From the NCBI RefSeq assembly GCF_029978005.1, contig NZ_JARKOZ010000109.1, positions 1-34,331 of the forward strand: 34,331 bases of DNA. Reading direction: 5' to 3'. Each line of letters opens with the position of its first letter. Position 1 is the stretch's first letter. Below are positions 25,313-32,991 of the stretch, piece after piece. The position numbers and the translations under genes are program-made. Origin of the DNA: Solidesulfovibrio sp. Lineage in GTDB: Bacteria > Desulfobacterota > Desulfovibrionia > Desulfovibrionales > Desulfovibrionaceae. Under the pieces are notes generated by a model. That model was not told the origin of the DNA and ran no database searches. It saw only the letters and a list, made by a program, of their open reading frames with translations.

Positions 25313-25342
25313 ATGGGAACCGGGTGCGAGGCGAGGCGATGA
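25313..25342 (+). CDS. Nine-codon leader mini-ORF with strong Shine-Dalgarno
   Basis: GGAGGAA (25301-25307) is ideally spaced from an ATG at 25313 that opens a nine-residue frame (MGTGCEARR) ending in TGA at 25340-25342. That stop overlaps the ATG of the sensor kinase (25339) as ATGA. The kinase itself has only a weak GAGG. Translation of the mini-ORF may therefore couple ribosomes onto the kinase start. The peptide is too short for a family assignment, so coding status is inferred only from the signals. Confidence 0.4.
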   Translation: MGTGCEARR

Positions 25343-27075
25343 CCACAGGCCGCGTCGGCGGCGGTTTCCTTTTCCGGGCTGCGGCCTTGCTGCTGGCCGT
25401 TCTTCTGGCCGGACCGGCCGTATCCGCGCGCGCCGAGGAGAACGGCTTCGCCGGGCGCACGCTGGTCATCGGCGGCGACCGCAACTATCCGCCCTACGAG
25501 TACCTCGACGCCAACGGCCAGCCGGCGGGCTTCAACGTGGACCTGTCCAAGGCCGTGGGCGAGGCCATGGGCGTGACCATCCGCTTCGTGCTCATGGACT
25601 GGTCCCAGCTCCACGAGGCCCTGGCCTCGGGCGCGGTGGACGCCCTGCAGCGCACGCCCTACTCCAACCTGTGGCTGCGCGAGGCGGAGCTGACCCCGCC
25701 GCACACCACCATCAACCACGCCATCTTCGCCCGCAAGGGCACGCCGGCCGTGTCCTCGCTGGAGGAGCTGGCCGGCAGGAAGGTCATCGTCCATCCCGGC
25801 GGCAGCGTGAACGACATCCTCGACGGGCTGGGCTTCGAAAAGGACCTCGTTTTTTCCAGGACGCCGGTGGGCGGGCTGCGCCGGCTGGCGGCGGGTGTGG
25901 GCGACTACGCCGTGGTGGCCATGCTGCCCGGGCTTTTCGTCATCGAGCAGGAGGGCCTCGACGACATCCGTGTGGTGGCCAAGAGCGTGACCACCCAGCC
26001 GTATGGCTTCGCCGTGCGCCACGGCGACGACGCCGCGTTGTCCCTGCTCAACGAGGGCCTGGCCCTGGTCAAGCAGTCTGGGCGCTACCAGGAACTGCGG
26101 CGCAAGTGGTTCGGGGTCATGGACTCCCAGGCCCTTTCGGCCGGCATGGCGCTCAAGTATGCGGCCGTGGTGCTCGGGCCGTTGCTGCTGCTGCTCGGCG
26201 GCGCGGCCCTGTGGACGCGTTCGCTCAAAAAGCAGGTGGACCAGCGCACGCGGTCGCTTTCCGACGCCCTGGAGCAGTTGCGCCAGAACCAGCAGCAGTT
26301 GGTCCAGGCCGACAAGATGGCGGCCCTTGGCGTCCTGGTCTCGGGCGTGGCCCACGAGATCAACAACCCCAACGGGCTGATCCTGCTCAACGTGCCCATC
26401 CTCAAGAAGCTCAACGCCGAGGCCAGGCGCGTGCTGGACGACGTCTACGAGGAGAAGGGCGATTTTCCCCTGGGCGGCGGGAGCTATTCGCGCATCCGCG
26501 ACAAGCTGCCGCGCATCGTCGAGGTGGTGGAGGAAAGCGCCCAGCGCATCCGGCGCATCGTGGACGACCTGCGCGACTTCTCCCGGGTCGCCCCGGCCGC
26601 CGACCACCGGGCCTTCGACCTGGGCGAGGTGGTGGAGAAGGCGACGCGGCTGGTGGGCAGCTCCATAAGCAAATCCACGGAGAAATTCCGCCTGGAGACG
26701 GCCCCGGGCCTGCCCAAGGTGTGGGGCAACCCCTCGCGCATCGAGCAGGTGGCGGTCAATCTGCTTTTGAATGCCTGCCAGGCCCTGCCTTCGCCCGACA
26801 GGGGCATCGCCGTGTCCACGGCCGCCGCGCCCGACGGCAAGGCCGTGGTCCTGACCGTGGCCGACGAGGGCGTGGGCATCGCTCCCGAGGACCTGCCGCG
26901 GCTGACCGATCCCTTTTTCACCACCAAACGGGCCAGCGGCGGCACGGGCCTGGGGCTTTCCGTCTCGGCCGGCATCGTCAAGGAGCACGGCGGCAGCCTG
27001 GAGTTCGCCTCCGAACCGGGCAAGGGCGCCACCGTCCGCCTGATCCTGCCCGCCGCGCCCGAGGCCGCGCCATGA
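25339..27075 (+). CDS. Hybrid sensor: family-3 solute-binding domain fused to histidine kinase
   Basis: The 578-residue protein begins with a signal peptide (AAALLLAVLLAGPAVSARA). A periplasmic family-3 binding domain follows (about 35-260; RNYPPYEYLDANGQPAGFNVDL, ELAGRKVIVHPGGS), with a single membrane helix (about 270-292) and a short coiled coil. The HisKA box is GVLVSGVAHEINNPNGLI with H339, and the HATPase has NLLLNACQAL, DEGVGIAPEDL and FFTTKRASGGTGLGLS. The binding domain presumably detects a periplasmic ligand directly. A GTG at 25324 is an alternative start. It overlaps the next gene by ATGA, so kinase and regulator form one unit, probably governing the downstream hydroxy-acid oxidation genes. 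Confidence 0.92.
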   Translation: MTTGRVGGGFLFRAAALLLAVLLAGPAVSARAEENGFAGRTLVIGGDRNYPPYEYLDANGQPAGFNVDLSKAVGEAMGVTIRFVLMDWSQLHEALASGAVDALQRTPYSNLWLREAELTPPHTTINHAIFARKGTPAVSSLEELAGRKVIVHPGGSVNDILDGLGFEKDLVFSRTPVGGLRRLAAGVGDYAVVAMLPGLFVIEQEGLDDIRVVAKSVTTQPYGFAVRHGDDAALSLLNEGLALVKQSGRYQELRRKWFGVMDSQALSAGMALKYAAVVLGPLLLLLGGAALWTRSLKKQVDQRTRSLSDALEQLRQNQQQLVQADKMAALGVLVSGVAHEINNPNGLILLNVPILKKLNAEARRVLDDVYEEKGDFPLGGGSYSRIRDKLPRIVEVVEESAQRIRRIVDDLRDFSRVAPAADHRAFDLGEVVEKATRLVGSSISKSTEKFRLETAPGLPKVWGNPSRIEQVAVNLLLNACQALPSPDRGIAVSTAAAPDGKAVVLTVADEGVGIAPEDLPRLTDPFFTTKRASGGTGLGLSVSAGIVKEHGGSLEFASEPGKGATVRLILPAAPEAAP

Positions 27076-28484
27076 CCGGAAGCTGCGCCGCCACGCCCGG
27101 CATCCTGCTCGTGGACGATGAGGCCGACTGGCTGGAGTCCATGACCCTGCTGCTTTCCGTCTCGGCCGGCATCGACAACGTGCGCGCCTGCCGGGACAGC
27201 CGGCAGGTCATGGACATCCTGGACGCGGGCGGCGTGGACCTGCTGCTGCTCGACCTCACCATGCCCCACCTGTCCGGCACGGAGCTTTTGGCCGCCGTGG
27301 CCGAACGCCATCCCGGCGTGGTGTGCATCGTGCTTTCCGGCATGAACCAGCTCCACGCGGCCGTGGAGTGCATGCGCCTGGGGGCCTACGACTACTACGT
27401 CAAGACCGACGACGAGGAGCGCATCATCGGCGGCATCCGCCGGGCGCTGCACATGCTGGAGCTGCGCGAGGAGAACCGCGAGGTGGCCAGGCGGCTGGTC
27501 TCGGGCGACCTGCGCCGGCCCGAGGCCTTCGCCGCCATCCGCACCAGGAGCCCGGCCATGCACGCCATCTTCGCCTACGTCGAGGCCGTGGCCCAAAGCC
27601 CCCGGCCCTTGCTCGTGACCGGCGAATCGGGCGTGGGCAAGGAGAACCTGGTGCGCGCCGCCCACGAGCTGAGCGGCCGCGAGGGGCAGCTCGTCGCCCT
27701 GAACGTGGCGGGCCTGGACGACACGGTCTTCACGGACACGCTTTTCGGCCACGTCCGGGGGGCATTCACCGGGGCCGACGCCCCGCGCCGGGGACTGGTC
27801 GAGGAAGCGGCCGGCGGCACGCTCTTTCTGGACGAGATCGGCGATCTGTCCGTGGCCTCCCAGGTGAAGCTTTTGCGCCTGCTCCAGGAGGGCGAGTACT
27901 ATCCGCTGGGCAGCGACCAGCCCAGGCGGCTTTGCGCCCGGGTCGTCGCCGCCACCCACGCCGATCTGGCCGCGCGCGAGCGCGAGGGCCTTTTCCGGCG
28001 CGACCTCTACTACCGGCTGCGCACCCACCACGTGGCCGTGCCGCCCCTTCGCGAACGGCCCGAGGACATCGAGCCCCTGCTCGACCATTTCCTGGACGAG
28101 GCCGCCGCGGCCATGGGCAAGCGCAAGCCCACCCCGCCGCCGGAGCTGGCCGCCCTGCTCGCCACCTATTCCTTTCCCGGCAACGTGCGCGAGCTGGCCT
28201 CCATGGTCTACGACGCCGTGAGCCTGCACACGGGCCGCATGCTCTCCATGGAGAGCTTCAAGCGCCGCATCGGCGCGCCCGAGGCCGCCCCGATCCCGCC
28301 GGCCGGGGACAACCCCTTCGCCGCCCTGTCCGCCCTGCCGAGCTTCGCCCAGGCCGAGAAGCTGCTGCTCGCCGAGGCCATGGCCCGCTCGGGCGGCCGC
28401 CAGACCCTGGCGGCACGCCTGCTCGGCGTCACCCAGTCCGCCCTGTCCAAGCGCCTCAAGGCCCAGCGCCAGGAAGACGCCTAG
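27072..28484 (+). CDS. Sigma-54-dependent response regulator (NtrC family)
   Basis: The 470-residue activator has a receiver domain (about 9-125, phospho-acceptor Asp in LLLLDLTMPHLSG), an AAA+ domain (about 157-385) and a Fis-type helix-turn-helix at the C-terminus (GGRQTLAARLLGVTQSALSKRLK). The AAA+ domain shows Walker A GESGVGKE, the sigma-54 contact loop GAFTGAD, Walker B GGTLFLDEIGD and the arginine-finger region FRRDLYYRL. It needs sigma-54 RNA polymerase and an upstream enhancer, and both kinds of sites are visible in the intergenic region that follows. Overlap with the kinase gene is 4 bp. Confidence 0.95.
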   Translation: MTGSCAATPGILLVDDEADWLESMTLLLSVSAGIDNVRACRDSRQVMDILDAGGVDLLLLDLTMPHLSGTELLAAVAERHPGVVCIVLSGMNQLHAAVECMRLGAYDYYVKTDDEERIIGGIRRALHMLELREENREVARRLVSGDLRRPEAFAAIRTRSPAMHAIFAYVEAVAQSPRPLLVTGESGVGKENLVRAAHELSGREGQLVALNVAGLDDTVFTDTLFGHVRGAFTGADAPRRGLVEEAAGGTLFLDEIGDLSVASQVKLLRLLQEGEYYPLGSDQPRRLCARVVAATHADLAAREREGLFRRDLYYRLRTHHVAVPPLRERPEDIEPLLDHFLDEAAAAMGKRKPTPPPELAALLATYSFPGNVRELASMVYDAVSLHTGRMLSMESFKRRIGAPEAAPIPPAGDNPFAALSALPSFAQAEKLLLAEAMARSGGRQTLAARLLGVTQSALSKRLKAQRQEDA

Positions 28485-28498
28485 CGGCGCGCCCGCGA

Positions 28499-28577
28499 AA
28501 TGCGTGCCTACGCATTCGTCGGACAACATTCTTTCGTTGCTCTCTTTTTCTGAAAAAATACTCTCGTGTTTTTTCAG
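28499..28577. repeat. Two small hairpins after the response regulator gene
   Basis: A 7-bp stem (28499-28505 with 28510-28516) lies just past the stop codon. An AT-rich 9-bp stem (ctgaaaaaa 28550-28558 with ttttttcag 28569-28577) follows. Either could help terminate the operon or serve as a binding site. The second is preceded by a T tract and embedded in AT-rich DNA unlike the surroundings. Confidence 0.4.
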
Positions 28578-32902: not shown

Positions 32903-32926
32903 GGCCCGGCCACGCCCCCCTCACGG

Positions 32927-32950
32927 CGGCCGCCTCCCCCGAGGCGGCCG
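32927..32950 (+). repeat. First hairpin after the cytochrome gene
   Basis: Arms cggccgcctc (32927-32936) and gaggcggccg (32941-32950) form a perfect 10-bp stem with a 4-nt loop, 25 nt after the stop. It lacks a T tract and sits just before the true terminator. Confidence 0.5.
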
Positions 32951-32959
32951 TCGGCGACC

Positions 32960-32991
32960 GGGCGCGGGGAGTTCTTCCCCGCGCCCTTTTT
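32960..32991 (+). terminator. Strong rho-independent terminator of the hydroxy-acid operon
   Basis: A perfect 11-bp GC stem (32960-32970 with 32976-32986, loop of 5 nt) is followed directly by TTTTT (32987-32991). It closes the binding protein-dehydrogenase-cytochrome transcript and separates it from gldA. Confidence 0.93.

Follow-up and report, generated by a model that had tools for sequence, protein, structure and literature searches.

A predicted periplasmic 2-hydroxy-acid oxidation system built on an exported-type FMN dehydrogenase and a triheme cytochrome in Solidesulfovibrio

Results

The window, i.e., the whole stretch of DNA analysed here, is a 34,331-base contig from a 4.8 Mb genome of Solidesulfovibrio sp., whose close relatives include Solidesulfovibrio alcoholivorans DSM 5433 (L068) and Desulfovibrio sp. 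DV (L069). It carries a five-gene unit that encodes an exported-type flavin mononucleotide (FMN) 2-hydroxy-acid dehydrogenase and a multiheme cytochrome. On the plus strand, positions 25339-32902 hold, in this order, the genes for a histidine kinase, a response regulator, a PstS-like binding protein, the FMN enzyme and the cytochrome (Table 1). An earlier annotation made from the letters of the sequence (the original prediction) had grouped these five genes into one unit closed by a terminator, and all were found where it placed them, with Pfam domains that match its calls; the kinase gene probably starts at 25339, which corrects that annotation. The cytochrome ATG overlaps the stop codon of the FMN gene by 4 bp, as had been read before, and the kinase and regulator genes also overlap by 4 bp. 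Gene content, order and strand are identical in seven relatives (L048-L054). This conservation, together with a largely invariant promoter-like 16-mer over the eight loci, argues that the arrangement is more than chance.

Table 1. Features of the five-gene unit and its control sites, in window coordinates
Feature	Position	Strand	Evidence
Histidine kinase with periplasmic family-3 solute-binding domain	25339..27075	+	SBP_bac_3, HisKA, HATPase_c; kept in L048-L054, L057, L061
Sigma-54-dependent response regulator (NtrC type)	27072..28484	+	Receiver, sigma-54 activation, Fis-type helix-turn-helix; retained in those nine relatives
GGGGTATGCCG, conserved half-site, possible regulator site	28640..28650	+	10/11 positions invariant, 8 loci; putative role
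CGGCATACCCC, inverted partner of GGGGTATGCCG	28736..28746	+	Invariant, 8 loci; putative role
TGGCATCGCTCCTGCT, predicted sigma-54-type -24/-12 promoter	28820..28835	+	13/16 positions invariant, 8 loci
PstS-like periplasmic binding protein (PBP_like_2)	28943..29761	+	Pfam, 94.5 bits
Tat-type FMN 2-hydroxy-acid dehydrogenase	29808..31022	+	FMN_dh PF01070, structural matches
Tat motif TRRDFIK, residues 12-18	29841..29861	+	RR.F in 26/26 distinct relatives of Tat type (partly built in, see text)
CX2CX2CX4C motif (Cys78, 81, 84, 89), possible metal or redox site	30039..30074	+	85/85 distinct fetched FMN reading frames
Ten-CXXCH cytochrome c fused to cytochrome b561-type membrane domain	31019..32902	+	Ten CXXCH counted by script; Pfam
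N-terminal triheme c7 domain of fusion	31133..31330	+	PF14522, residues 39-104; part shared with other lineages
Cytochrome b561-type domain	32267..32836	+	PF01292, residues 417-606
Intrinsic terminator	32960..32991	+	Stem 32960-32986, 12 pairs, then TTTTTC

The FMN enzyme groups with the 2-hydroxy-acid oxidases. FMN_dh was the only Pfam family in the chain (221.3 bits against a cut-off of 24.9), the fold is a TIM barrel of the glycolate-oxidase type, and every structural match listed was a 2-hydroxy-acid oxidase. K275, H299 and R302, which we take to be the catalytic Lys, His and Arg, are kept in all 23 aligned rows of the type that carries a twin-arginine translocation (Tat) motif. The motif's RR.F core served to define this Tat type, so its presence in all of the distinct relatives is partly built in. 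Judged by the Tat motif alone, the protein would belong to an exported type within the hydroxy-acid oxidase fold. It scored below the cut-offs for LldD, the E. coli L-lactate dehydrogenase (PRK11197, 160.8 against 376 bits; L_lactate_LldD, 142.2 against 550 bits).

The active-site Tyr pair and the substrate Arg, presumably Y24, Y129 and R164 in LldD, lie in stretches without a reliable alignment; by eye and without gaps, Lys212 falls at the second Tyr and Arg243/246 fall beside the Arg. We do not claim that Arg243 is exactly the substrate Arg of glycolate oxidase, because the ungapped reading misses it by one residue and the alignments do not decide the point. Positions 243 and 246 are Arg in 23 of 23 Tat rows, against Leu or Met/Leu in 33 of 33 paralogue rows. 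The corresponding SAGRxxR pattern is missing in two of 26 Tat rows (L091, L096) and present in one of 59 others, L094 from a short contig, where a truncated Desulfobulbus FMN_dh reading frame (L094:3522-4034) combines it with a cytosolic-type CRVCPVC and may be an intermediate. The CX2CX2CX4C motif is common to exported and cytosolic members of the branch and absent from the aligned E. coli LldD, and it may mark where a widespread enzyme binds a metal or cluster; its count in Table 1 sought the pattern anywhere in the open reading frame (ORF) of a set chosen without regard to it, an earlier row set having been preselected by the motif.

Matches to the FMN enzyme (E up to 1e-20) occur in 172 of the 199 genomes of the family. 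Going by the extent and identity of the match, the long Tat type is in 12 of the 199, window included; the other family matches listed belong to a shorter type, mostly beginning near residue 60 and in most rows 43-53% identical. At wider scale the Tat type was found in 14/297 genomes of the class, 3/198 of the phylum of Nitrospirota genome G320, 3/55 of the Telmatospirillum siberiense family (one with two copies), 1/199 of the Propionivibrio dicarboxylicus family and 2/198 of the phylum of G323; outside the family, Tat-type relatives were initially picked up with two peptide patterns, so that diverged ones may have escaped these counts. In a tree of 64 rows, from which LldD was omitted for its very long branch, the 27 Tat rows form one group with support of 100/100 and a single change of type; with LldD added, support for the group is 99/72.

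The Tat type is consistently linked to a c-type cytochrome gene. An ORF with at least three CXXCH motifs lies directly downstream on the same strand in all 27 Tat loci, with 149-265 nt between the FMN stop codon and the first CXXCH in 26 of them (652 nt in L080), and it has a YGGGGxGxVxFDxxxH-type signature in all except L096. No such ORF was present within ~1.5-1.7 kb on either side of the 37 cytosolic-type loci counted, of which L017, L082, L084 and L112 have less than 1 kb downstream. The cytosolic count took the 37 cytosolic rows of the tree, with L021, L026, L043, L047, L086, L087, L090, L093, L094 and the cytosolic-type loci in L101-L109 and L121-L128 left outside it, and the linkage rows are not independent. 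The pairing spans Desulfovibrionaceae, Telmatospirillum and Rhodospirillales, Propionivibrio, a Burkholderiales metagenome-assembled genome (MAG), Nitrospirota and a Syntrophorhabdaceae MAG, with Alpha- and Betaproteobacteria among them. Scattering of the genes among relatives' loci, against which the original prediction was to be checked, was not seen for the FMN-cytochrome pair.

Two of these loci have further peculiarities. L096 (6870-8491) encodes a second, much diverged Tat-type FMN enzyme of Telmatospirillum siberiense (~46% identity, tblastn) with its own triheme gene, whose signature is slightly different. Just upstream of the Tat-type enzyme in the Syntrophorhabdaceae MAG (L089:3164-4228) lies a gene for a radical S-adenosylmethionine protein with a twin-arginine-like N-terminus, SRRNFLKR, which is odd for a cytoplasmic enzyme class.

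The c7 domain that begins the ten-heme fusion is, in other lineages, a separate gene, such as the short stand-alone c7 genes beside L110 and L129, or fused to the PBP domain, as in L057 and L076, and the remaining partners vary. A PDB sequence search with the window cytochrome gave only short c7-type and c3-type matches, and its b domain stayed below the PhsC cut-off (PRK15006, 150.6 against 204 bits). The ten-CXXCH/cytochrome-b fusion is present in ten of the 27 loci (types A and C). Six others (type B, L057-L062) have a DsrJ-like triheme gene with genes for a DsrO and an NrfD protein; all six passed the DsrO (256.0-268.7 against 200 bits) and NrfD cut-offs, while the DsrJ model (26.5-31.9 against 100 in L057, L058 and L059) and the DsrP model (37.5 against 350 in L057) fell far short. 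Gene calls at the other 11 loci, whose neighbours were partly Pfam-scanned, showed no adjoining cytochrome-b or JOP-like gene. Upstream at L048 (1448-3526), S. alcoholivorans has genes for two further cytochromes, one with four CXXCH motifs and one with eight, and Pfam matched the eight-CXXCH protein to MtrC/MtrF-like and multi-haem families; these genes were not seen at the other loci read.

The binding protein had been called an orphan, and this holds for the genes scanned around it: no pst or phosphate ATP-binding cassette transporter gene adjoins the unit, since beyond the FMN_dh and cytochrome genes its neighbours are an EamA transporter (24379-25275, upstream) and a glycerol dehydrogenase (33101-34195, downstream). 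In the PDB, phosphate-binding proteins come nearest to it in both sequence and fold. However, the protein is below the PstS cut-off (TIGR02136, 130.1 against 206.6 bits) and differs from phosphate-bound 4gd5 at the GSSAG and GSGT stretches. A PstS-like domain is linked to the Tat-type enzyme in 21 of 27 loci and absent in six, and two distinct subfamilies accompany the same enzyme type. Ten of the 199 family genomes hold close relatives of it (E up to 1e-40), and all ten also have the Tat-type enzyme. Because the domain is fused to the triheme c7 in 11 of the 27 loci, the protein appears to be part of the redox unit; classical phosphate uptake was rejected on the missing transporter genes, the NCBI cut-off and the c7 fusion.

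The stretch between the regulator and PstS-like genes was compared between the window and the seven relatives that share its gene make-up (L048-L054; eight loci, 458 columns). Across the stretch 103 of the 458 columns are invariant, against 13 of 16 in the 16-mer at 28820-28835. We read TGGCATCGCTCCTGCT as a sigma-54-type promoter from its fit to what we take to be the -24/-12 consensus and from the sigma-54 activation domain of the regulator. Single-locus support is weak, with 6.6-15.6% of shuffles scoring equally well in the eight loci; in other lineages the figure is 0-2% in L055, L056, L057, L059, L061 and L062 and ~9% in L058 and L060. Upstream of the promoter-like site, the palindrome TTTCGGCAAATGTTGCCGAAA (28667-28687) is not conserved over the eight loci, and it was dropped as the regulator site in favour of the inverted half-sites GGGGTATGCCG and CGGCATACCCC, which are.

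The same kinase-regulator pair accompanies ten of the 27 Tat-type loci (window, L048-L054, L057, L061). Elsewhere a PrpR-type sigma-54 regulator (L055), a HAMP/sigma-54 protein (L058), a PBP_like_2 protein with a hybrid kinase (L078) or LytS/LytTR (L111) adjoins. This swapping of regulators between lineages suggests that the unit serves regulated catabolism rather than housekeeping. At L062 (10610-11473) a gene for a PhnD-type phosphonate-binding protein adjoins a HAMP/sigma-54 regulator, which adds another periplasmic binding protein to the sensing side of these loci.

Discussion

The original prediction read the locus as a regulated periplasmic system that oxidises a 2-hydroxy acid and passes the electrons to a cytochrome and quinone network, and it proposed co-occurrence as a check. 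The unit, the exported-type enzyme and its tie to a c-type cytochrome stood up to comparison (27 of 27 Tat-type loci, with the PstS-like domain in 21), but the two-component pair, kept in only ten, and the cytochrome b did not prove to be core. Conservation of the whole unit was therefore dropped as a test, as these parts are kept in some lineages only. By this comparison, the core is the FMN enzyme-c7 pair, with the two-component pair and cytochrome b as lineage-specific extras.

We consider it probable, on sequence grounds, that the unit is an inducible periplasmic 2-hydroxy-acid oxidation system analogous to flavocytochrome b2. The FMN enzyme would fold with its flavin in the cytoplasm, be exported by the Tat route and convert a small 2-hydroxy acid to the 2-oxo acid in the periplasm. 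The reduced flavin would then pass single electrons to the triheme c7-type domain encoded directly downstream. In the lineage of the window this domain sits in the ten-heme cytochrome, whose cytochrome-b anchor would reduce menaquinone; in other lineages the c7 stands alone or is joined to the PstS-like domain, and the electrons would go to a DsrJOP-like set or to other cytochromes. The most likely task of the PstS-like domain is to bind the acid or its product and keep it near the enzyme-cytochrome pair, and the kinase would detect a periplasmic solute and drive the sigma-54 promoter.

Flavocytochrome b2, the yeast L-lactate:cytochrome c oxidoreductase, lies outside the inner membrane and uses a dehydrogenase of the same fold that passes electrons through a heme domain to a c-type cytochrome; its PDB sequence matches the FMN enzyme at ~107 bits. 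It differs in that its heme domain is of the b5 type and within the same chain, whereas here the heme protein is separate, of c type and triheme or ten-heme, and the enzyme has a bacterial Tat signal, an N-terminus rich in Cys and a PstS-like partner; Pfam found no cytochrome b5-like domain in the FMN_dh chain. E. coli LldD and the cytosolic paralogue of the D. vulgaris DVU2784 type share the FMN_dh domain and the catalytic Lys/His/Arg, and the cytosolic paralogue, 44-53% identical in the family matches listed, also the Cys motif, but the latter has no Tat motif and, in all 37 loci counted, no cytochrome neighbour. Qrc and DsrMKJOP resemble the six JOP-like loci in combining a periplasmic cytochrome, a Tat-exported 4Fe-4S protein and an NrfD subunit; unlike DsrMKJOP, those of them scored with the DsrJ and DsrP models fall far under the cut-offs, and the window has the cytochrome-b fusion instead. 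The system is predicted to work like flavocytochrome b2 in a bacterial periplasm, as a member of the FMN_dh fold family that is neither flavocytochrome b2 nor, in its binding protein, PstS.

It is unlikely, though worth weighing, that the exported enzyme has another job served by the c7 link, such as oxidation of a phosphorylated or larger anion, or redox sensing. The Arg pair at 243 and 246, replaced by Leu or Met/Leu in the paralogues, would suit a substrate of more anionic character or a surface for heme docking, the folds closest to the PstS-like one are those of phosphate binders, and the FMN_dh family includes other roles (the pre-mycofactocin synthase MftD model scores 123.6 bits). However, small 2-hydroxy acids are all anions as well, the catalytic Lys/His/Arg are all kept, all listed structural matches are 2-hydroxy-acid oxidases, and the PstS-like domain falls below the PstS cut-off and departs from 4gd5 at both stretches named above.

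That the PstS-like protein is an ordinary phosphate binder placed by chance beside a redox operon seems very unlikely; its PBP_like_2 match (94.5 bits), the phosphate-binding proteins nearest to it in PDB sequence and fold and its absence from six of 27 loci would fit, yet linkage in 21 loci, triheme fusion in 11, two subfamilies beside the same enzyme, presence of the Tat type in all ten family genomes with close relatives of it and a score below TIGR02136 speak against it. We give slightly less credence still to a unit that runs backwards as a menaquinol-fed periplasmic 2-oxo-acid reductase, i.e., an electron sink. Periplasmic fumarate-type reductases do use the same parts (quinone-linked cytochrome, c-type carrier and exported flavoprotein), and the cytochrome weakly matches flavocytochrome c3 in the PDB (E 0.5-1), but the flavin domain here is outside the fumarate-reductase family, known members of its fold oxidise, and the usual 2-oxo/2-hydroxy acid couples have potentials below or close to that of menaquinone, so that reduction would be uphill or nearly so.

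For the oxidation system favoured above, L-lactate, oxidised to pyruvate, is our first guess as substrate, on thin evidence and with about one chance in three. It draws on the LytS kinase beside L111, which keeps R72, R99, C110 and T114 of the pyruvate-binding BtsS, on the neighbourhood of the cytosolic paralogue at L084 (a lactate-permease fragment, GlcD and a GlcF/LdhH-like gene), and on DVU2784, listed in the available part of PMC4481167 as an FMN-dependent L-lactate dehydrogenase ortholog. DVU2784 is probably the cytosolic FMN paralogue, an identification that is our own. Two points weigh against the kinase hint: the L111 genome holds a second LytS gene, and the kinase has Ala at Ser113 of BtsS, where the S113A exchange lowers affinity and response according to the available part of PMC10653868. 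A CstA-like gene near L059, a weak NCBI match (80 against 1188 bits), was not used as a pyruvate hint.

More tentatively, and with somewhat less than even confidence, we propose an undescribed, horizontally spread form of periplasmic respiration, in which a clade of exported FMN dehydrogenases always travels with its own triheme cytochrome, a PstS-type fusion captures the acid and carries electrons, and quinone modules (cytochrome b, JOP-like or a free cytochrome pool) are interchangeable. In this form, the four-Cys motif might place a further metal or redox centre on the way from flavin to heme. Searches of open-licence PubMed Central (PMC) papers turned up no account of an FMN hydroxy-acid dehydrogenase that is exported and paired with a multiheme protein. 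If the reading is true, sulfate reducers and several unrelated bacteria could oxidise a fermentation acid such as lactate outside the inner membrane, sparing the energy of uptake, and its electrons would enter cytochromes or menaquinone. Since Qrc, which has an NrfD subunit, is described as an electrogenic cytochrome c3:menaquinone oxidoreductase (available parts of PMC6303296 and PMC13059093), a similar role for the NrfD-type partner can fairly be suggested, and both JOP-like and cytochrome-b versions could add to the proton-motive force. The system would be a bacterial counterpart of mitochondrial flavocytochrome b2 and would give the cytochrome-fused binding-protein domain a job, and a Tat-type FMN_dh gene followed by a c7 gene would be a clear genome marker of the trait.

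At the edge of the window, an ORF from 34249 (34249-34331) runs off the end, and its start looks transposase-like by eye.

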